This document shows, piece after piece, positions 513-10,140 of a stretch of 10,390 bases of DNA. Source of the DNA: Candidatus Dadabacteria bacterium (lineage in GTDB: Bacteria; Desulfobacterota_D; UBA1144; Nemesobacterales; UBA2774); the NCBI GenBank assembly GCA_003229065.1, contig QIHJ01000199.1, forward strand, positions 1 to 10,390. The letters are read 5' to 3'. A program made the position numbers and the translations under genes. How positions within the stretch are numbered: position 1 is the stretch's first letter; every line of letters begins with the position of its first letter. The notes beneath the pieces are model-generated. The model was given only the letters and a program-made list of their open reading frames with translations. It did no database searches and was not told where the DNA came from.

Positions 513-2756
513 GTGGACCTGCCAACTTATCTGAAGAAATTCCGTGTTAAATCCGCGCTTAAGGTTGTGTTGGCCGCGGTAATATGCATTCTGGTGAATA
601 ACATTCTTCACCTCGATGCAATATACCTGGCGGAGCTGTATACATTTTTGATATTAACCCTATTCCACGGTCAGGCTCTCAAGGTGGGCTTACAAACACT
701 CTTTGCAGTAATAGTGTTCGGTGCTATAAGTATCGGGATCACGTATCTGTTCCTGGATTCTAAGGTCATATATATAATCCTTATGAGTTTTGTGCTCTTC
801 TTGTGTATGACATTTATAAAAAAGTATTTTCTGGCAACGTTGCTAAGCGGTGTGCTGATAGCGATAACAACCTACATGGCTGTTAATGAATCTGTTACGG
901 AAGCTACCAATACAGCTCAAAATTTTGTATTGCAGATGGTCTTGGCTGTTATCGTGTGCTGGATAGTGGATGAGTATATATGGCCGCACAGGAGCCGCAG
1001 GACTTTTGACCTGACACTGTCCACAATGTTTTCCGAGTTGGGAAATCTCTATCAAAACTACACTGCTGAGGATATAGGCGGGAGATACGGCCATCATTCT
1101 ATATCGACCACTCTTGTTACTTTCTCAGGTCTCATGAATTTGCTTAAGAGAGTAGAGAGTGAGGAGGGGAGAAGTAAATACTTTCCTGTCGGCGCATATA
1201 TAAAGATGATTACATTCGGTAGAGGCATATACATAAAGACAGAGGTATTGGAGGAGTATGTTCTGAAACAGCATGATTTTCTAAGTGATGCCGAGGTCTC
1301 GGACGAGCTTAACAAAATCTTGCTCAATATCTCCGGGCGCTTTAGAGAGCTCTCGGACGCTGTTTCAGGAAATCGGGAGGCACGACTACAGGGTGATGAT
1401 ATCGGAAGCTCAATCAACTCATTACACAGCTATTATAAAAAGATACATGAGGTTAAGGGGAAAGAGGTTCAGTACTACGAGGACTTGCTGGCTTTCGGCG
1501 CAATGCTCCCGGTCTTGGACGAAGTAACTCTTAAGCTAAGTAAAATTGAGCATTTATATAATCTTATTCAGAGAAATGAATACCGTAAAATGCTGGAGCA
1601 GCGGGTGACGCACGCACCCGAAGTAGAAGAGATAAAGTCCAAGCCCTTTTTTCAATTTAATGACGAGACCGTTAAAGTCGGCATTAGAACTGTGATTATA
1701 TATTGGCTTCTTATACTCGGACAGGTAACTATAGATCTTCCGGGAGGTGCGCTTGTCTCGTTTTATGCAATTTTGTTCGGCATCATCCCCAACCTGGGTC
1801 AGGCGTTTATGAAAAGCAGCTACGGTATTGCGGGCATTGTTGCAGGAATAGTATTTGGATTTATTGCGCTAATTATAGTTTCGTTTACACCTCATTTTCT
1901 GATACTTTTGCTGCTGTTCTGTATGGGATTTTTCATTGCATCATTTGTGACTACAAGTCCGAGGGATATATCGGCTGCGGGTCTTCAGGCCGGTCTTGTA
2001 ATACCCTATGCTCTGCTTTACACTACGGGTCCCCAGGTTGATCTGGACGCCGCTATCACAAGGTTTTTAGCGTTACTTTCTGCCGCTTTTATCGGACTGA
2101 TAGTTCTTCATCTCGTATGGCCTGTAAACCCGTATACGCAGCTAAGACAAAATATATCAAAAGCACTTCGGGTAAGCGGCGGGATACTGGGAAAGCTCCT
2201 TATGTTCGATATAAAGGAGAAGGACAAGATAGACGCACTGGTAGTCCCATTGGCGGCGTCACTCCCTACGAGTACGGCGCTTCTTCACGATGCCGAGTAT
2301 ATAATGCGCGAAGAAAAGCTTCATTCAGAGGAATATCTCCATATAATAGAATCTCTGGAAGTGATGTTCGCCGACCTCGAAACCGTAAAAAGAATGGTTT
2401 ACAGTCATATGGACAGCGAGCTATTTCATATGTATCTCGGCCATATGTCAGATGATTATAAGATGCTCTGCAGCTACTTTGATGAGGTGTCTGCACTCCT
2501 CAGCTCTTCTAAAAGGGATATGACCGCTCAAATTTCAGACTTAAAAGTTAAGATTGAAGAGGACAGGCAGGTGTTCAGAGACTCGGATGTTTGGCGGAAA
2601 TATGAGCCCGGGGATATAGAAAGTAATGTTTTAGTTACGGCGAGCATAGACAGCCTGCTTGATTCGCTTTATAAAATCTGTTGCCGTATTAACACGATAA
2701 ACGGGATTGAAACCGGGCAGGATGTAACATTGCAAACCTCCGAAACTATGTCATGA
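513..2756 (+). CDS. FUSC-family inner-membrane transporter (AaeB/fusaric acid resistance type)
   Basis: The 747-residue protein has the two-half architecture of the FUSC family. A membrane block at about residues 15-155 ends in IWPHRSRR. A hydrophilic, helix-rich cytoplasmic region follows at about 160-385. A second membrane block at about 388-537 ends in VWPVNPYTQLR, and a soluble tail of about 200 residues completes it. The repeated W-P plus basic residues after each membrane block is typical of the family. FUSC proteins such as AaeB export aromatic carboxylic acids with an HlyD-type partner; one is encoded downstream at 4716. The substrate here is unknown. The soluble tail makes it somewhat longer than AaeB (about 655 aa). 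The start is GTG: an in-frame stop lies at 492-494, and no ATG or clear Shine-Dalgarno lies between, so initiation may be weak. It is the first gene of a four-gene plus-strand block. Confidence 0.85.
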   Translation: MDLPTYLKKFRVKSALKVVLAAVICILVNNILHLDAIYLAELYTFLILTLFHGQALKVGLQTLFAVIVFGAISIGITYLFLDSKVIYIILMSFVLFLCMTFIKKYFLATLLSGVLIAITTYMAVNESVTEATNTAQNFVLQMVLAVIVCWIVDEYIWPHRSRRTFDLTLSTMFSELGNLYQNYTAEDIGGRYGHHSISTTLVTFSGLMNLLKRVESEEGRSKYFPVGAYIKMITFGRGIYIKTEVLEEYVLKQHDFLSDAEVSDELNKILLNISGRFRELSDAVSGNREARLQGDDIGSSINSLHSYYKKIHEVKGKEVQYYEDLLAFGAMLPVLDEVTLKLSKIEHLYNLIQRNEYRKMLEQRVTHAPEVEEIKSKPFFQFNDETVKVGIRTVIIYWLLILGQVTIDLPGGALVSFYAILFGIIPNLGQAFMKSSYGIAGIVAGIVFGFIALIIVSFTPHFLILLLLFCMGFFIASFVTTSPRDISAAGLQAGLVIPYALLYTTGPQVDLDAAITRFLALLSAAFIGLIVLHLVWPVNPYTQLRQNISKALRVSGGILGKLLMFDIKEKDKIDALVVPLAASLPTSTALLHDAEYIMREEKLHSEEYLHIIESLEVMFADLETVKRMVYSHMDSELFHMYLGHMSDDYKMLCSYFDEVSALLSSSKRDMTAQISDLKVKIEEDRQVFRDSDVWRKYEPGDIESNVLVTASIDSLLDSLYKICCRINTINGIETGQDVTLQTSETMS

Positions 2757-2793
2757 AAAATTGCGGGCGCTTAAAATTACAGTACAATTTCCG

Positions 2794-2822
2794 TTTTGAT
2801 TTCTGAAAACAGGGGCTATAAT
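2794..2822 (+). promoter_or_regulatory. Possible promoter before the antiporter gene
   Basis: The 81-base gap between the FUSC and antiporter genes contains a perfect TATAAT at 2817-2822. A weak -35 (TTTTGA, 2794-2799, three of six matches) sits 17 bases upstream. Initiation would fall near 2829, leaving almost no leader for the GTG start at 2838 but about 36 bases for the ATG at 2865. The box would allow the antiporter to be transcribed separately from FUSC. Confidence 0.3.
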
Positions 2823-2837
2823 TGAGTCTCAGGCTCA

Positions 2838-4136
2838 GTGGCAGAGCCTTCGAGCTATACAGATATGGACTTATTTAACGTATTCGCGATACTGATTACG
2901 CTTACCGCCGTATTCAGCTTCATAAATGTGGTCTACATAAAGCTGCCCTCTACCGTGGGGGTAATGCTTGCGTCGCTTATTTCCTCTATTGTAATAATCA
3001 TCTCCGGTTATCTGGGCTTCGGGGGCATGGACTGGGCTGTCAAACTTGTCGAGGCCGCTGACTTCGACCACCTGGTGATGAACGGGCTTTTGAGCTTCTT
3101 GTTATTTGCCGCTGCATCAAGGGTGAATATTTCCGAGCTAAGAGAGTATAAGTGGACAATCTCTTATCTGGCGACTGTAGGGATTATCATCTCTACACTA
3201 TTCATCGGGTTTACCATCCATTGGTTATTCTCCCTTTTCGGTAAAGACCTACCGCTGATTTACACTATTATATTCGGAGCCATTATCTCTCCTATCGATG
3301 CTATTTTAGTACTGAGGCTGCTAAAGCAAGTAAATGCAAGTAAGGCTTTGGAGACCATTATTACCGGGGAATCTCTTTTTAACGACGCTGTTGCGGTAGT
3401 GCTGTTCGTTTTTCTAGTTGCAATTGCGGGCGGGGACGCTGAGTTCACAGGTGTTGACATAGCTAAATTCTTTGTCAAAGAGGCTTTGGGAGGGTTATTC
3501 CTGGGACTGTTCTTCGGTTATTTGAGTCATAGGATGATAGTAAAAATAATTAAAGAGGGCTCTAACAACCATATAGTTATCGTACTCATTACGCTTGCGC
3601 TTGTGTCCGGCGGGTACACGGCTGCCGAGCTTCTGGACGTGTCCGCACCACTTACGAGCGTGGTTGCGGGGCTGTTCCTGGCCAGGAGCAGGCGTCGTAA
3701 AACCGGTGAAGAGATGCCTATGCATGTGAGGTATGTGCATGATTTCTGGGATGTCGTCGACGAAGTGCTCAATGCGCTTCTTTTTGTTCTGATCGGGCTT
3801 GAGGTGCTGGTGCTCAATTTCCAAAAATCATTCTTTGCAGGATGTATTTTGGTTATTCCAGTGATTATTGTTGCCAGGTATATAAGCGTTGAAGCCCCGC
3901 TTTTATTTTTGAGGTTCTTTAGAAAGCTCCCGTCCTTAAAAGGGTTTGTAATGACGTGGTGCGGAATTAGGGGCGGAGTCTCTATAGCGCTCGCCCTTTC
4001 GCTCCCTGACTCGGAAGAGAGGGATGTAGTAATTGTTCTTACATACGTCGTTGTTATATTTTCCATATTCGTGCAGGGGCTTACATTGGGGAGAGTAATA
4101 AACTGGGCGAAACACAAAGAAGGCGAAATTAAATAA
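2838..4136 (+). CDS. CPA1-family (NhaP-type) Na+/H+ antiporter
   Basis: This 432-residue, almost wholly hydrophobic protein should exchange cytoplasmic Na+ or K+ for protons across the inner membrane. The key signatures are GESLFNDAVAVVLF at about residues 177-190, containing the N182-D183 pair that marks electroneutral CPA1 exchangers, and WCGIRGGVSIALALSLP at 374-390, with the conserved arginine R378. The segment SPIDAI (151-156) occupies the position of the unwound-helix motif that is usually SATDPV. There is no C-terminal TrkA-like or cyclic-nucleotide domain; the protein ends about ten residues after the last helix. The GTG start at 2838 is the most upstream possible, because a stop lies at 2823-2825. 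ATG 2865 is equally plausible and would give a family-typical N-terminus; neither has a clear Shine-Dalgarno. The gene sits between two efflux-pump genes, which suggests a shared function or regulation. Confidence 0.87.
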   Translation: MAEPSSYTDMDLFNVFAILITLTAVFSFINVVYIKLPSTVGVMLASLISSIVIIISGYLGFGGMDWAVKLVEAADFDHLVMNGLLSFLLFAAASRVNISELREYKWTISYLATVGIIISTLFIGFTIHWLFSLFGKDLPLIYTIIFGAIISPIDAILVLRLLKQVNASKALETIITGESLFNDAVAVVLFVFLVAIAGGDAEFTGVDIAKFFVKEALGGLFLGLFFGYLSHRMIVKIIKEGSNNHIVIVLITLALVSGGYTAAELLDVSAPLTSVVAGLFLARSRRRKTGEEMPMHVRYVHDFWDVVDEVLNALLFVLIGLEVLVLNFQKSFFAGCILVIPVIIVARYISVEAPLLFLRFFRKLPSLKGFVMTWCGIRGGVSIALALSLPDSEERDVVIVLTYVVVIFSIFVQGLTLGRVINWAKHKEGEIK

Positions 4137-4150
4137 GCACATTATTGGCT

Positions 4151-4156
4151 TATAAT
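4151..4156 (+). promoter_or_regulatory. Possible -10 box (TATAAT) before the lipoprotein gene
   Basis: The 110-base gap after the antiporter contains a perfect TATAAT but no convincing -35 box. Initiation near 4163 would give a leader of about 84 bases. The leader includes the AT-only palindrome TTATTAATAA (4224-4233) immediately before the Shine-Dalgarno. Chance occurrence in AT-rich spacer DNA is quite possible. Confidence 0.22.
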
Positions 4157-4246
4157 TAAATAGATGTTAGGTTTTATTCATCGCCGGAGCTTTATGATCT
4201 GTGTATATTCATAGCGCAGGCTGTTATTAATAATAAGGAGGAAGTG

Positions 4247-4660
4247 ATGAAAAAGACGATAACAATTAGAATTAGTGTTTTAGCCGTGCTCTCAGTATTT
4301 TTTCTTATGAGCTGCGCTGCGATAAAATCTCAGGACGCAGAGTCCACAGAGGAGCTCTTGGGCGCTGCCGGGTTTATTCTGATCCCTGCCGAAACACCTG
4401 AAGAAATTGCAAACCTAAACACCTTAACACCGCTTAAAGTAGAATTCAGCGTTAAGGACAATAAGCCCCTTTACTGGTATGCCGACCCCTATAGCTGTAA
4501 ATGCGTCTACACCGGCGACCAAGCTGCATATGAGCGTTATCAGAGATTAAATGTCGAGCAGAATATTGCTTACGAGGAGCAGGATGCCGCTCTCATGAAC
4601 GAGCAGGCCGCAGCCGACGCCAATATGTGGGGCTGGCTGGGCGGTCCCTGGGGCTGGTAA
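4247..4660 (+). CDS. Small predicted outer-membrane lipoprotein with Trp/Gly-rich tail
   Basis: I do not assign this 137-residue protein to a named family. A basic n-region (MKKTITIR) and a hydrophobic stretch lead to a lipobox-like LMSC with the lipidated cysteine at residue 23. Ala-Ala follows at +2/+3, which by the enterobacterial Lol rule favours the outer membrane. The mature part has an acidic linker, then LYWYADP (75-81) and CKCVYTGD (84-91, Cys-x-Cys), then AYERYQRL (94-101). A Gln/Glu/Ala-rich helix follows, and the tail MWGWLGGPWGW. The strong AAGGAGG at 4235-4241 lies five bases from ATG 4247 but only two from the in-frame GTG 4244, so I chose the ATG. Its place between the antiporter and the HlyD adaptor suggests an accessory of the efflux system, for example an envelope anchor. 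That is inference. Confidence 0.78.
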   Translation: MKKTITIRISVLAVLSVFFLMSCAAIKSQDAESTEELLGAAGFILIPAETPEEIANLNTLTPLKVEFSVKDNKPLYWYADPYSCKCVYTGDQAAYERYQRLNVEQNIAYEEQDAALMNEQAAADANMWGWLGGPWGW

Positions 4661-4715
4661 TACTCGTAAAGATTTGGGCTTACGGAGATTGGCAATTTAA
4701 TAGCCCGGGCCTGAA

Positions 4716-5825
4716 ATGAAACTCAAATATCTCTTTGGCAAATTAGGTATTAAGAGACCCGATTACACCGCACGGTTCTGGGTAATTCTGGTAGTTTGCA
4801 TTGTGGTGGTACTGATAATCTATTACGCGCTCCTGGACCGATATACGCCCTACACCGGCGACGCATATATACAGGCCTATGTGGTGCAGGTGGCCCCCCA
4901 AGTAGAAGGCCGGGTGGTGGCTGTGTACGTGGAGAATAACCAGTTTATCCGGGAGGGTGAGAAGCTTTTTAGCCTGGATCCCCGCCCCTATGAGTATCGG
5001 GTAGAGCAGCAGCGCGCCGAGCTTGTACAGGCCAAACAAGAAGTCGATCAGTACCGGAGCGATATCAGGGCTGCGGAGCAGGTGGTCAAGCAGTCTCAGG
5101 CGGAGCTTACCTATGCTCATAAGCTATATGACGACCTCCTGCCGCTTGCAGAGAAGAATTACGTAGCCCGTATTGAGCTCGATCGGGCGATTGACAAGTT
5201 AAACTCCCAAAAAGCGGTGCTGAATCAATCCATAGCCGAGTATGAGCGCACCGAGCAGGCGCTCGAATACACGATAGACGGAGAGTTCGCGCTAATCAGG
5301 CAAATGGAGTCGCAGCTTGCCTACTACCGGTACCAGCTGGAACAGACCACGGTATATGCGTCTGTGGACGGGTTCGTTACGAACCTTCAGCTTGTAAGCG
5401 GCTCCTATATAGACGTTGGGGATGCCGTTTTAACCCTTGTAGACGACGATAACTGGTGGGTAGTGGCTAACTTTAGAGAGAACAGCGTAGGAAGAATCCG
5501 CGAGGGACAAAAGGCTGAAATAAGTATTTCTCTGTACCCGGGTAAGATCTTCGAAGCCCGGATCGAAAGCACCGACTGGGGAGTGAGCGCAGGGCAGGGT
5601 ATACCCTCCGGCAATCTGCCAGATGTGGAGAACCCGGAGAACTGGATCAGCATCTCGCAGCGTTTTCCCGTAAGACTCACAATTACTGATCTGAACGAGG
5701 AGCAATACCCGCTTAGAATAGGAGGCTCGGCGAGTGTGGCTGTCTATACCGGCAGGAATTTCATATTAAACGGACTTGCCGGCTTATGGCTGCGAATCGG
5801 GAGCCTGATCGATTACGTCTATTAA
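4716..5825 (+). CDS. HlyD/EmrA/AaeA-type membrane-fusion protein of efflux pump
   Basis: The 369-residue protein is a periplasmic adaptor anchored in the inner membrane. A short basic cytoplasmic end precedes one transmembrane helix at about residues 22-40. The first half of a lipoyl-like domain spans 50-92 (VAPQVEGRVVAVYVENNQ, then G81 and LDPRPY). A long alpha-helical hairpin spans about 93-208. The second lipoyl half is at 213-243 (VYASVDGFVTNL, then G229). A beta-barrel region (VVANFREN, then GQKAEI) continues to about 345. The C-terminal LAGLWLRIGSLIDY resembles the YibH/YiaV branch of the family. Such adaptors bridge an inner-membrane transporter to an outer-membrane channel; the FUSC protein at 513 is the natural partner. 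No channel gene is visible. The ATG lacks a clear Shine-Dalgarno; the expected position holds the palindrome GCCCGGGC (4703-4710). The start was kept because of the basic N-terminus. Confidence 0.88.
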   Translation: MKLKYLFGKLGIKRPDYTARFWVILVVCIVVVLIIYYALLDRYTPYTGDAYIQAYVVQVAPQVEGRVVAVYVENNQFIREGEKLFSLDPRPYEYRVEQQRAELVQAKQEVDQYRSDIRAAEQVVKQSQAELTYAHKLYDDLLPLAEKNYVARIELDRAIDKLNSQKAVLNQSIAEYERTEQALEYTIDGEFALIRQMESQLAYYRYQLEQTTVYASVDGFVTNLQLVSGSYIDVGDAVLTLVDDDNWWVVANFRENSVGRIREGQKAEISISLYPGKIFEARIESTDWGVSAGQGIPSGNLPDVENPENWISISQRFPVRLTITDLNEEQYPLRIGGSASVAVYTGRNFILNGLAGLWLRIGSLIDYVY

Positions 5826-5847: not shown

Positions 5848-5884
5848 CTATTTTCAAACTCTTATAGATAGAGCTTGAAAATAG
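5848..5884. terminator. Candidate bidirectional terminator between convergent genes
   Basis: Arms at 5848-5861 (CTATTTTCAAACTC) and 5871-5884 (GAGCTTGAAAATAG) pair at 13 of 14 positions around a nine-base loop. They lie where the HlyD gene (ending 5825) and the glycosyltransferase gene (ending 5862) meet. The right arm encodes the last residues of the glycosyltransferase, so the hairpin overlaps coding sequence. The stem is AT-rich and no long T-run follows on either strand, so it may be a weak or factor-assisted terminator. Confidence 0.45.
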
Positions 5885-6587
5885 TCCAGAGGATTTTATA
5901 GCCTGCTTTAAAAGACCCGCTCAAGGTGCCGGTAATTTTGGATACCCCTATCCTTTTCCTGTAACTGACCGGAACCTCTGTACACCTGTACCCCGATTTA
6001 GCGGCCTTGACCTGCATCTCGACAGTCCAGCCGAATGTGGTGTCTGTCATTTCAAGCTCTAAGAGCTTCTCAAACTTTATTGCCCGGAAAGGGCCGAGAT
6101 CGGTGAACTTTACGCCGTATAGCCATTTTATGAGCGTTGTGGCAAGAGCGTTTCCGAACCTGGCCTGAGGGAGCATCGCGCCCGGCTCCGCTTCGCCCAG
6201 TTTCCTGGAGCCTATCACCATGTCGTAATCTTCATCGATAATGGGTTTTACAAGCTCTCTAATTTCTTCGGGGAAGTCAGAGTAATCACCGTCAATGAAC
6301 ACTATGATGTCAGGACTTTCGTTTAAGTTTTTTGCGTGCCCTATCCCCTTGAGGCATGCCTGTCCGTAGCCCCTTCGGGGCTCATCGATCACTGTAGCGC
6401 CGTGAGACCCTGCCACTTGCGCAGTTGTGTCCGTTGATGCGTTGTTCACGACAACGACTTCGCTTACGAAATCCTCCGGGATATCGGCCAGGACTTTGCC
6501 GATCGAGTCTTCCTCATTGTATGCGGGGATAATTACGAGAATTTTAGGGTTCATCTTATCAATGTGTATTCCAGGATAGGGATACAT
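5862..6587 (-). CDS. Family 2 glycosyltransferase, polyprenyl-phosphate mannose synthase-like
   Basis: This 241-residue GT-A fold enzyme should transfer a sugar from a nucleotide donor, probably to a lipid phosphate or a glycan precursor. Visible motifs are IIPAYNEEDSIG (19-30) at the nucleotide-binding end and VVVNNASTDTT (45-55). The metal-binding D-x-D is D99-G100-D101 in FIDGDYSD. TDLGPFRAI lies at 162-170 and the basic RIGVSKITGT at 212-221. These match the DPM1/DPG-synthase-like subgroup of GT2. There is no C-terminal membrane domain, so it is probably cytoplasmic or peripheral. The start is uncertain. ATG 6587 has AGGT three bases upstream, while ATG 6554 (residue 12) would begin directly at the conserved core but has no Shine-Dalgarno. 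It lies about 290 bases downstream of the flavoprotein gene, beyond a repeat region, so co-transcription is doubtful. The donor and acceptor cannot be read from the sequence. Confidence 0.85.
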   Translation of the reverse strand: MYPYPGIHIDKMNPKILVIIPAYNEEDSIGKVLADIPEDFVSEVVVVNNASTDTTAQVAGSHGATVIDEPRRGYGQACLKGIGHAKNLNESPDIIVFIDGDYSDFPEEIRELVKPIIDEDYDMVIGSRKLGEAEPGAMLPQARFGNALATTLIKWLYGVKFTDLGPFRAIKFEKLLELEMTDTTFGWTVEMQVKAAKSGYRCTEVPVSYRKRIGVSKITGTLSGSFKAGYKILWTIFKLYL

Positions 6588-6875: not shown

Positions 6876-9257
6876 CTATTTATTCTCACGCATTAATACG
6901 GGAGATGCGGCAAGCTTGTCAATAGAGATTACTCCCCCGGTTTTTCTGTCTACCTGACCGAACTGGAGAACCCCTGTGGGGCAGGACTGCACGCACGCGC
7001 TGCAGCGAACGCACTCGGGATCGTTCAAAGGGAGCCCTTTGTTAGCGAAGTTCATTATGTCTATACCCATGTGGCATACCGAGGTGCATACATTACAGGA
7101 TATGCACTTTTTCTTGTTAGATATAATCCTGAAGCGGCTGAACCGGGCGTAGATATGCATGAGCGCGGCGAGAGGGCATATGAACCTGCACCATACCCTG
7201 CCGCTGAACCAGAAATATAGCCCGTACCCAATTATGCCGGCAAAAAAGAGATCGACCACCCATTTGTAGTTGAACTGTATACCGAAGGGCTTCCAGCCGT
7301 AGAGCATAGAGGCGTATAGATTGTTCAGCCACTGCCCGATGCCGGTGTCTGGGACAGACCAGCTGATGACGCGCGCTATCAAAATAATAAAAGCTATAAC
7401 GAGGATCACCTGGCCTACCATGTTTGCGCGGTTCCAGCGGGCGCCGTGGGGCATCTTGTGGCGCTGGGTATCGCCGAGGGTCTCGGCCATAGCGCCGCAC
7501 GAGCATATCCAGCCGCAGTAAGCGCCCTTACCCCAGAAATAGATCATGCCCGGGATTATAACAAACGTCTGTACGAGGCTAATTATGAGCCATGTCCACA
7601 GCGGCTCATGGCTGAACACGTTCCATATGAACAGGGGCCAGGCCAGTATTATGCCGAACGCCCGCCAGTACTCGCGGCCGTGTCCGTAGTTGGCCTCGGG
7701 AAATAGCTCGTTTCCGACCGTGTTCATAAATCCTGCATCAAATAGACCGTTGTGTCCGAGATAAGGGAGCACGAAGTACGGCAGAAAGAAAAGCGGTATA
7801 ACCTGTATAAGAGCAAGCGACAGGGTCTGTATCTTGATATAGGGGGTCTTGCGTCTTCTTACGCGCATTATGCCGAATATTACCACCAGTAGCGTGTACA
7901 GAAGGGAGTAATAAAACCCTGGCTCCTCGAGCGTAATCGCCATAGTGCCGAGGAGGGTAGACGGGTCGTTTACCATAAGTGAAAAAGACTCGCTAATGCT
8001 GTTAAATAGAGGGGGAAGGTTGTACGGGAACCACTCGTTTGACTGAAAGAGCTTTGTGAGCGAGCCTCCCGCTTTCCAGTTGTAAACAAATGTCATGAAT
8101 AGTAAGAAGAGGGCCAGGCTTATCCAGCCCATAGCGCTGAACTCGCCCTTAATCCTTACTCCGCTCCTTCTGAAAAAGTCAAGCGGCGCCTCGCGCCCAA
8201 TCATGGTAAATACCGCGTCATTCGCTAATGTGAGATCGTTCCCGTCCTTGTCGGTGATCTTGACCTCGGTCTCGCCGATGTCCTTCACCCGGCTCTTCAT
8301 CATGAGGCTTATCTTGCCGGGCTGGCGGGCTTCGGGCATATATTTCCCGGTGCTAGTGGTTACGCGATCGGACGACGGGGTCTCGATCGCCACATCAGCC
8401 TCAGGGTCGGCCATGAGCATATTAAGATATTCTATGTTCTCTAGTTTTGGTCTTGAGAACTCTTCCTTTCTATATGAGTGAGTGACCGAGCCTCCTGCCT
8501 TTGCAATCGCTATAGATGTTTCAAGAGCACTGTCTCCACCCCCGACTACAAGCACGTTCTTACCTTCAAAATCCATTGGGTCGTGGAGGCGGTTAAACAC
8601 TTTTCCCTTGTCCTCACCGGGTACTCCTAATTTCCTGAAATTACCCGAGCGCCCTATACCCACAATTACCCGTCTTGCCTTAAGGTTCTCACCGTTGGGT
8701 ATGGTTATTTCAAAGTAATTACCTTTCTTCTCGACCTTTTCCACCCTGGCCATGACGGGCTCGATCCCTTTGCCGAGAGTCTGCTCCTTCATCTCTTCCA
8801 CAAGAGGCTCTTTGATGTCTTTTGTAAACTGGAGGTCTCCGAGAGGGACCATCTCTGTAGGGTATGTATAGATCGGTTTTCCTTTGGGGAAGTTGACTAC
8901 AGTAGAGAAGGGCTCAGTTGCTTCGAGTATCCTGAAATTCAGCTCGTCCTTCTTCGCTTCAAGCGCAGCCGCCATCCCTGAGACGCCTGCTCCGACAATT
9001 ACGAGATCGAGCATATCGGGGTCTTTATTCGCACCGCGCTCAGAGAGGAAGCTCTTGTCCATACGGATCGATTCCACGGCCCTTGCGCCAGAGTCGGAAG
9101 AGAATTTCAAAAGCGGTATACCGGTGAGATCGCCTACGATATATAGCCCCGGGACATTCGTAGAATAGTCGCTGTTAACCTCTGGCAGTTTTTCCACAAC
9201 TCCGGCAGGCCACTGCGTATGGAGCCATTTTGTATATCTCGTTATCAGCCCGAACAA
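6876..9257 (-). CDS. Membrane iron-sulfur flavoprotein: TrxR-like FAD/NAD(P)H module fused to NapH/NosR-type domain
   Basis: This 793-residue fusion looks like a one-chain electron conduit from NAD(P)H through FAD and Fe-S clusters at the membrane. Residues 35-62 (NVPGLYIVGDLTGIPLLK and onward) resemble the C-terminal FAD-binding segment of thioredoxin reductases. The FAD Rossmann motif GAGVSG is at 89-94 and the NAD(P)H motif VVGGGDSALE at 237-246. No CxxC redox pair of classical thioredoxin reductase is seen. From about 375 the chain is membranous, with helices near 375-392, 448-464, 478-500, 534-549, 553-575, 613-632 and 667-685. It carries CGWICSCG (581-588) and WCRFICP (689-695), the paired cysteine motifs of NapH/NosR/CcoG-like proteins. 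Two 4Fe-4S sites follow: C718, C721, C724, C728 and C749, C752, C755, C759. The TTG start has a perfect AGGAGG (9270-9265) seven bases upstream and an in-frame stop five codons before it. The electron acceptor is unknown. Confidence 0.85.
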   Translation of the reverse strand: MFGLITRYTKWLHTQWPAGVVEKLPEVNSDYSTNVPGLYIVGDLTGIPLLKFSSDSGARAVESIRMDKSFLSERGANKDPDMLDLVIVGAGVSGMAAALEAKKDELNFRILEATEPFSTVVNFPKGKPIYTYPTEMVPLGDLQFTKDIKEPLVEEMKEQTLGKGIEPVMARVEKVEKKGNYFEITIPNGENLKARRVIVGIGRSGNFRKLGVPGEDKGKVFNRLHDPMDFEGKNVLVVGGGDSALETSIAIAKAGGSVTHSYRKEEFSRPKLENIEYLNMLMADPEADVAIETPSSDRVTTSTGKYMPEARQPGKISLMMKSRVKDIGETEVKITDKDGNDLTLANDAVFTMIGREAPLDFFRRSGVRIKGEFSAMGWISLALFLLFMTFVYNWKAGGSLTKLFQSNEWFPYNLPPLFNSISESFSLMVNDPSTLLGTMAITLEEPGFYYSLLYTLLVVIFGIMRVRRRKTPYIKIQTLSLALIQVIPLFFLPYFVLPYLGHNGLFDAGFMNTVGNELFPEANYGHGREYWRAFGIILAWPLFIWNVFSHEPLWTWLIISLVQTFVIIPGMIYFWGKGAYCGWICSCGAMAETLGDTQRHKMPHGARWNRANMVGQVILVIAFIILIARVISWSVPDTGIGQWLNNLYASMLYGWKPFGIQFNYKWVVDLFFAGIIGYGLYFWFSGRVWCRFICPLAALMHIYARFSRFRIISNKKKCISCNVCTSVCHMGIDIMNFANKGLPLNDPECVRCSACVQSCPTGVLQFGQVDRKTGGVISIDKLAASPVLMRENK

Positions 9258-9264
9258 GGTGATT

Positions 9265-9270
9265 CCTCCT
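9265..9270 (-). promoter_or_regulatory. Strong ribosome binding site that fixes a TTG start
   Basis: AGGAGG on the minus strand lies seven bases before TTG 9257-9255. The in-frame ATG at 9014-9012 (residue 82) would start right before the FAD Rossmann motif but has no Shine-Dalgarno. The longer TTG reading is therefore preferred, and it adds the N-terminal FAD-like segment. Confidence 0.75.
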
Positions 9271-9372: not shown

Positions 9373-10140
9373 TTACTGTATGCCGTTTAGTGTCCAGTCG
9401 TAGCTTGTGTATTCGATCTTGAAATCAGAGCCGGCTTTGCCGTAGAAATAGGGATTTACAAACCTCACCACAGAGCCCGACTCCTTTACGAAGTCCTCAC
9501 TATACCAATCAAACAGAGGAGAGAGGTGCAGGGTCTTATTCGCTGTATCTATAGAGTTATTCCGAGTATCGGACAAGAACACGCGCGTCTGAGCTTCCAG
9601 CTGCTCATTAAGCGTTTCGCCGAGATAGGGCTTATCTATAAGCACGGGGCAGCCTTTGGCAGCACACACAAGGGCAAAATGGATTCTTGGCTCTGGATAG
9701 TTTTTTCTGATTACTTCATTTTCCAGGGCATTAAGGGTAATTTTGTCTCCGAACAGCCCTACGATCGGCTGCTCCCAGGGGCCTCCAGAATCTTCGGCTA
9801 TGTCTTTGATGCTTACAACCGGATAATTTTCCTGAATAAGATCAAGCGTCCCGGCATTGTAAACGTTTATTAGAAAGGCAAGCTGGTGGTCTTGAGACCA
9901 GGTCTCAAACTCCTCTTTGGATACGCGTGAAGTTTGGTTGAGATAACTTTTTAGGTTGTCCGGGTTTGATTTTATCCCTCTGTAGTCGACCGATCCGTCC
10001 TTGAGATATTCTCCCACTACGTTTGAGTAAAGAGTGTGAGTCTGATCGAAGGGCCCGGGTGTTATATCAGCGGCGGATGCATATGTTGAGAGTTGGAGAG
10101 GCAGCGCCAAAGAGAATAATAAGATTAGATATATGTTCAT
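9373..10140 (-). CDS. Exported DUF547 domain protein
   Basis: The 255-residue protein has an N-terminal hydrophobic stretch ending in ASAA, giving a likely signal-peptidase cleavage near residue 23-24. The signal is unusual in having no Lys or Arg in its n-region. The mature protein carries the DUF547 hallmarks: DHQLAFLINVYNAGTLDL (84-101), RIHFALVCAAKGCP (152-165, with C159 and C164) and the terminal YDWTLN (247-252). The conserved Asn and Cys residues give the domain a possible hydrolase look, but its activity is not established. AAGGAG (10156-10151) lies ten bases upstream of the ATG, and an in-frame stop upstream rules out a longer form. A 115-base gap separates it from the flavoprotein gene downstream, so the two may be co-transcribed. 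That gap holds a direct repeat GTCTCAAG (9298-9305 and 9347-9354) and no clear promoter. Confidence 0.85.
   Translation of the reverse strand: MNIYLILLFSLALPLQLSTYASAADITPGPFDQTHTLYSNVVGEYLKDGSVDYRGIKSNPDNLKSYLNQTSRVSKEEFETWSQDHQLAFLINVYNAGTLDLIQENYPVVSIKDIAEDSGGPWEQPIVGLFGDKITLNALENEVIRKNYPEPRIHFALVCAAKGCPVLIDKPYLGETLNEQLEAQTRVFLSDTRNNSIDTANKTLHLSPLFDWYSEDFVKESGSVVRFVNPYFYGKAGSDFKIEYTSYDWTLNGIQ

Follow-up and report, generated by a model that had tools for sequence, protein, structure and literature searches.

An apparently circularly permuted flavin module joined to a NosR/NapH-like membrane protein in Candidatus Dadabacteria

Few folds in enzymology have been studied as much as that of thioredoxin reductase and lipoamide dehydrogenase, and the order of its parts is usually taken as given. 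Thioredoxin reductases are homodimers and carry a redox-active CxxC in the NADPH domain. A usual route to a circular permutation is tandem duplication with losses. Here, we describe a protein of 793 amino acids (aa) encoded on contig QIHJ01000199.1 of a Candidatus Dadabacteria bacterium, in a window (the whole stretch of DNA that was analysed) of 10,390 nucleotides. As judged from its sequence, residues 1-375 are very probably a flavoprotein module of the YpdA/thioredoxin-reductase type, with two dinucleotide-binding domains, in circularly permuted order. No description of a permuted thioredoxin-reductase-type enzyme was found among the listed matches of searches in the open-licence PMC literature, and such an enzyme is also unmentioned in the available passages of PMC4686048, PMC5928378, PMC8238504 and PMC6591457.

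For the flavin module, the best match in the PDB, in both fold and sequence, is YpdA, the bacillithiol disulfide reductase Bdr (PDB 7a76, 7a7b, 7apr; TIGR04018), whose activity requires Cys14 in the motif GGGPC14G according to a passage of PMC6591457. The protein described here differs from it in being apparently rotated, in having no Cys14 equivalent and in its fusion to a membrane domain. The second half is comparable with proteins of the NosR/NapH/PceC type (PF12801, Fer4_5): passages of PMC5928378 present such a membrane module as common to PceC, NosR and NapH, and passages of PMC8238504 describe NapH-like proteins as likely carrying electrons across the membrane. By its sequence, the membrane part here is NosR/NapH-like, sharing with those proteins both the two CxxxC sites and the two C-terminal 4Fe-4S motifs (passages of PMC5928378 and PMC8238504). 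It differs in its first motif, which reads CGWICSCG and not CxxxCP, and, with respect to NosR, in that no FMN_bind domain was detected (Pfam, E 0.001), an N-terminal NAD(P)H:FAD (flavin adenine dinucleotide) module being present instead. The curated NCBIfam cut-offs for NosR and NapH were missed (NF046105, 45.2 of 1000 bits; TIGR02163, 63.6 of 213.05 bits).

The gene and the parts of its predicted product are the following:
6876..9257, minus strand: gene of the 793-aa putatively permuted flavoprotein/NosR-NapH-like iron-sulphur membrane protein, with a TTG start
9265..9270, minus strand: Shine-Dalgarno-like AGGAGG, read directly, 7 bases 5' of the TTG start
9186..9257, minus strand: residues 1-24, N-terminal helix and WLHxxWPAG motif, the motif almost invariant in the closest homologues (class A)
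9060..9185, minus strand: residues 25-66, apparently displaced FAD-domain segment (TNVPGLYIVGD strand and helix), C-terminal in native-order enzymes
9015..9059, minus strand: residues 67-81, putative linker between the former C-terminal helix and the former N-terminal strand
8142..9014, minus strand: residues 82-372, FAD Rossmann and NAD(P)H-binding domains (Pfam Pyr_redox_3/Pyr_redox_2; fold match to YpdA)
8976..8993, minus strand: GAGVSG (89-94), FAD phosphate-binding loop
8526..8543, minus strand: GGGDSA (239-244), NAD(P)H-binding loop
8451..8477, minus strand: SYRKEEFSR (261-269), NADPH-type-like motif of presumed specificity
7206..8135, minus strand: residues 375-684, membrane domain with six or seven modelled helices (five clear peaks in hydropathy)
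7497..7517, minus strand: C581-xxx-C585-x-C587, first membrane-edge cysteine motif (Fer4_5)
7173..7190, minus strand: C690-xxx-C694-P, second membrane-edge cysteine motif (Fer4_5, matched in two stretches)
6963..7127, minus strand: residues 711-765, two-cluster ferredoxin domain with eight cysteines (Fer4_10)

The FAD-binding GxGxxG and the NAD(P)H-binding GxGxxG/A domains are both present, placing the protein among Pyr_redox_2/3 in the thioredoxin-reductase branch. Pfam matched Pyr_redox_3 at residues 86-368 and Pyr_redox_2 at 84-369 (PF13738, 111.4 bits, cut-off 30; PF07992, 74.9 bits, cut-off 26.1), the latter only as far as profile position 251 of 291 and hence without the last 40 positions, where the GD segment would be. 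This segment, found at the C-terminal end in two-dinucleotide-binding-domain flavoproteins, stands in front here, which points to a permuted variant. The initial annotation had proposed as much, and its reading of the letters holds: a PGLYxxGD copy (P36-G37-L38-Y39-I40-V41-G42-D43) precedes the FAD loop (G89-A-G-V-S-G94), and the chain runs from T351-M-I-G-R-E-A-P-L-D-F-F362 into the membrane near residue 375 (hydrophobic helix at 373-391 by hydropathy and 375-395 in the model) with no second GD segment. The match of the front segment exceeds chance, because positions 290-330 of the NCBIfam lipoamide_DH profile align to residues 26-65. The rotated order is not represented in the domain libraries searched.

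Among 8000 scored candidates, 5421 were homologous; the best 120 were taken as class A, while class B is a distant class and class D a third architecture, considered further on. A hidden Markov model (HMM) of the segment, built from residues 24-65, was used to scan 359 homologues, and the segment lay ahead of the core in 358 and behind it in none (class A, 120/120; module-only search, 119/119; class B, 119/120, the sole miss, P0250, starting at the core). The rotation foreseen from the single sequence is thus general in this set, and no protein in it starts at residue 82 and keeps a C-terminal GD segment. The N-terminal segment is also conserved: in an alignment of 87 sequences G19, P25, G42, D43, L44, G46, P48, K51 and G57 show the same invariance as the FAD-loop residues G89, G91 and G94, and G42-D43 is kept in all 155 class A rows (135 distinct) and GD in 121 of the 122 class B rows. 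The spacing from segment to core is bimodal: the 378 permuted proteins range from +10 to +33 residues and 13 native-order rows from a third set range from -297 to -318, with no value in between. On this reading the GD strand and helix (25-66), formerly C-terminal, would have come to stand in front, tied to the former N-terminus by a linker of mostly 11-20 residues, and the new break would fall in the loop that follows FFRRSGVRI, near YpdA residues 270-276. Among the hallmarks of circular permutation, the rotated order and the joined old termini are found in the sequence, and folding within one chain is suggested by models only.

Native-order relatives (L047, L048, L116 and others) are more distant and have no NosR-like domain. 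In L047 and L048 the same core lies close to the N-terminus (35% identity over residues 7-208 of L047) and is followed by a homologous GD-type segment (TNVPGIYVVGAVGGKDLIKSALNEG in L047); they differ from the window protein in that the segment stands at the C-end of the module and in that no membrane domain was found in them; L047 continues with cyclic nucleotide monophosphate (cNMP)-binding and iron-sulphur (Fer4) domains. The front-segment profile matches them after the core with 29.4 and 17.9 bits respectively, and ordinary thioredoxin reductases weakly, also after the core, with about 4 to 10 bits. In single-path alignment, rotating the module raised the score against L047 from 302 to 354, 13 standard deviations (SD) above 100 rotations with the segment shuffled (302.8 +/- 3.9, maximum 319), and against L048 from 269 to 297, 5.7 SD above the shuffled controls (271.9 +/- 4.4, maximum 292).

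In the model of residues 1-375 alone, an arrangement with residues 35-62 away from the FAD site, named beforehand as evidence against the rotation, was not seen; the mean predicted local distance difference test (pLDDT) score was 94 for residues 31-40, 92 for 51-60 and 93 for 61-70, and strand 38-40 has no partner strand inside the segment to pair with. The module model (residues 80-374) aligns to YpdA residues 1-272 of about 323, leaving the last ~50 residues of YpdA unmatched, and a helix is predicted at residues 2-13 with low confidence. The models suggest that the displaced segment packs back into the FAD sheet of the chain to which it belongs.

Several observations weigh against a permuted module. 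The block holding the GD turn (41-50) was modelled at a pLDDT of only 70, and the strong couplings show no excess of segment/core pairs (4 among the top 50 and 72 among the top 348; background fraction 0.22). With the whole-protein model, 34 of the 50 listed structure alignments extend past residue 372 to residues 719-761, so that the ferredoxin may lie near that face. Pfam gained almost nothing on the rotated sequence (Pyr_redox_2, 79.7 vs 79.5 bits, the match still ending at profile position 251 of 291), probably owing to residues 1-24, which lie between the joined ends, and to the weak last 40 profile positions. Likewise, whole-sequence phmmer did not prefer the rotated form against L047 (130.0 vs 130.5 bits), the segment contributing some 18 bits whichever order was used (shuffles 111.7 +/- 1.1); phmmer sums separate stretches and therefore scores both orders equally, which is why single-path alignment was used.

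On the models, the FAD site is likely completed within one chain and not across a dimer. The alternative is a domain-swapped dimer, whose FAD sites become whole only on dimerisation because each is closed by the N-terminal segment of the other chain. In its favour, thioredoxin reductases are homodimeric, and couplings and single-chain models are equally compatible with completion in cis and in trans. It is nevertheless unlikely, as the joining stretch is short and always there (10-33 residues in the 378 permuted proteins) and the coupling V61-L85 brings the helix next to where the following strand begins, which makes the within-chain route short.

With regard to function, the resemblance to YpdA/Bdr, the top PDB match, raises the question of whether the protein, instead of transferring electrons, works as a membrane-tethered thiol-disulphide reductase of the YpdA type. 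Other thiol chemistry may occur in homologues, since at least one module cysteine lies elsewhere in 86 of the 155 class A rows. However, the place of Cys14 is taken by VS here and holds no cysteine in any of 405 module rows, the thioredoxin-reductase CxxC is likewise found in 0/405, and these absences argue against a disulphide reductase; the window protein itself has no cysteine in residues 1-375. The cut-offs for YpdA/Bdr (TIGR04018, 125.4 vs 339.9 bits) and thioredoxin reductase (TIGR01292, 84.2 vs 343.45 bits) were missed. A thiol-disulphide reductase is, on balance, improbable.

An electron-transfer role, in which a cytosolic NADPH:FAD module is coupled to a transmembrane iron-sulphur chain, is put forward with as much doubt as confidence. 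Pfam supports the two-cluster ferredoxin at residues 711-760 (PF13237, 31.4 bits, cut-off 25.5) and the membrane iron-sulphur region in two stretches (PF12801, 39.7 bits, cut-off 22); in the 87-sequence alignment C581, C585 and C587 are invariant, and C690 and C694 are kept at >=90%. SYRKEEFSR at 261-269 (YRK....R at 262-269) resembles the HRRxxxR motif of NADPH-type enzymes and, together with the NAD kinase gene adjoining in five of nine loci (see below), it favours NADPH. The module would exchange electrons with NAD(P)H, probably NADPH, via FAD, which would hand them to the 4Fe-4S clusters of the C-terminal two-cluster ferredoxin; from there they may pass to the two membrane-edge CxxxC sites of the NosR/NapH-like domain and on to a quinone or a periplasmic partner, or they may flow in the reverse direction. 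An even number of membrane helices would place both ends in the cytosol, and the positive loop after the second helix, with the ferredoxin at the C-end, suggests a cytosolic location for both redox domains. Open frames of 469-508 aa at five loci (L016-L020) match only the NosR-like membrane and ferredoxin half, from about residue 446 or 558 of the query to 766, with no flavin module.

Very improbable is the view that the front segment is a functionless relic of a second reductase copy, with the site closed otherwise, for instance by the ferredoxin. Tandem duplication with losses is indeed a usual route to permutation, and the whole-protein structure alignments often extend into residues 719-761; against this stand the nine invariant front residues, the GD kept in 155/155 class A and 121/122 class B rows, and a stretch of just 24 residues ahead of the segment with no sign of a second core. 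That two genes were joined by an assembly or gene-calling artefact is practically negligible, even though the window comes from a draft genome of 446 contigs, because the identical order recurs in independent genomes named for several phyla.

The same permutation as in the window protein occurs in class D (e.g. L106, L109, L126-L145), which is made up of a hydrophobic stretch, a ferredoxin-like domain, the GD/GE segment and the FAD/NAD core, and which differs in having the ferredoxin-like domain right ahead of the segment and at most 8 bits to the NosR-like profile. Among the 20 fetched loci, some with longer open frames, the segment precedes the core in all, a hydrophobic stretch lies within 200 residues ahead of the segment in all, and 18 carry two C-x5-C-x3-CP motifs; the second cysteine of the 4Fe-4S motif is often missing, and one complete four-cysteine motif is found in 11. 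The segment reads GE, not GD, in 12/12 class D rows. A search with L109 in 386 genomes, where the best few candidates per genome were scored, returned 41 places in 37 genomes; 39 of them have the segment ahead of the core, and the other two are the genes of L047 and L048, starting at the core. CxxCH motifs lie upstream in the same open frame at L145. The reason initially offered for the rotation, that it frees the C-terminal side of the module for fusion to the membrane domain, finds only partial support. Class D is permuted as well, with a ferredoxin-like domain ahead and often nothing after the module; the permutation is thus independent of the NosR-like domain, and the proposed reason is weakened. 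A stand-alone soluble permuted module was also sought: in the module-only search (best 120 of 5363), 16 short matches were inspected and look like truncated or frame-shifted copies of the membrane fusion, the remaining listed matches being scanned by HMM only.

Named records from 26 loci, four of them (L025, L040, L041 and L045) with partial matches, are labelled Dadabacteria, Deltaproteobacteria, Thermodesulfobacteriota, Caldithrix, Phycisphaerae, Sumerlaeia/Sumerlaeota, Verrucomicrobia and kin, Myxococcales, and Bacteroidetes with Salinibacter-like genera. In a first tree (63 rows, every sixth class A and B protein) the native cNMP class fell beside class B (98/92). In a second tree of 65 rows, with class D and more native rows and without L103, L101, L056, L039, L036, P0240 and nine of the 20 class A proteins of the first, native rows again fell among the permuted ones, and class A was separate; a single permuted clade was not rejected by the approximately unbiased (AU) test (p 0.449), and long branches are present. 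Tentatively, a circular permutation, perhaps a single event, may have made a portable, end-swapped NAD(P)H:flavin module which was fitted, across many phyla, to at least three electron-transfer chassis (NosR/NapH-type in classes A and B; ferredoxin-like with an N-terminal hydrophobic stretch in class D). These would together constitute a hitherto undescribed superfamily of NADPH redox proteins that span the membrane or are anchored in it, and the swap would serve to bring the ferredoxin or the membrane entry to the end closest to the flavin.

Such a natural, conserved and widespread permutation would indicate that the FAD domain tolerates new ends, at the loop before the GD segment, and would account for Pfam matches that stop before the profile end. 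It also bears on database names such as 'NosR/NirI family transcriptional regulator' and 'thioredoxin reductase/ferredoxin', and points to an uncharacterised family, likely an electron carrier between NADPH and the membrane.

Gene neighbours were surveyed at 30 loci, some sharing one genome. The gene directly upstream in the window is separate from the protein:
9373..10140, minus strand: DUF547 gene, directly upstream of the flavoprotein
A DUF547 gene adjoins the flavoprotein on its upstream side in seven of ten Dadabacteria-type genomes (including L051-L054, L022, L038 and L046); the DUF547 papers listed (10 of 21) are mostly on plants. Further upstream, several of these genomes encode a 449-aa protein without a Pfam match, an RskA-type anti-sigma factor and an extracytoplasmic function (ECF) sigma factor, a setting that hints at stress regulation. 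The NAD kinase gene is divergent and adjoins the flavoprotein in five of nine Bacteroidetes/Rhodothermota-labelled loci (L032-L036; identified by Pfam for two and by homology for the rest), and a uracil phosphoribosyltransferase gene lies directly downstream in all four Verrucomicrobia-labelled loci (L028, L029, L031, L039; by Pfam for three and by homology for L028). Across the 30 loci these neighbours (ECF sigma, RskA, 449-aa protein, DUF547, NAD kinase and uracil phosphoribosyltransferase) do not fix the function. On the plus strand of the window, positions 513-5825 encode a FUSC-like transporter, a Na+/H+ exchanger, a 138-aa lipoprotein-like protein and an EmrA/HlyD-type adaptor, a cluster kept near the flavoprotein in several relatives. 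Finally, positions 5862-6587 encode a family-2 glycosyltransferase, with AglJ as top NCBIfam match (below cut-off), and such a gene lies near the flavoprotein in most Dadabacteria-type relatives.
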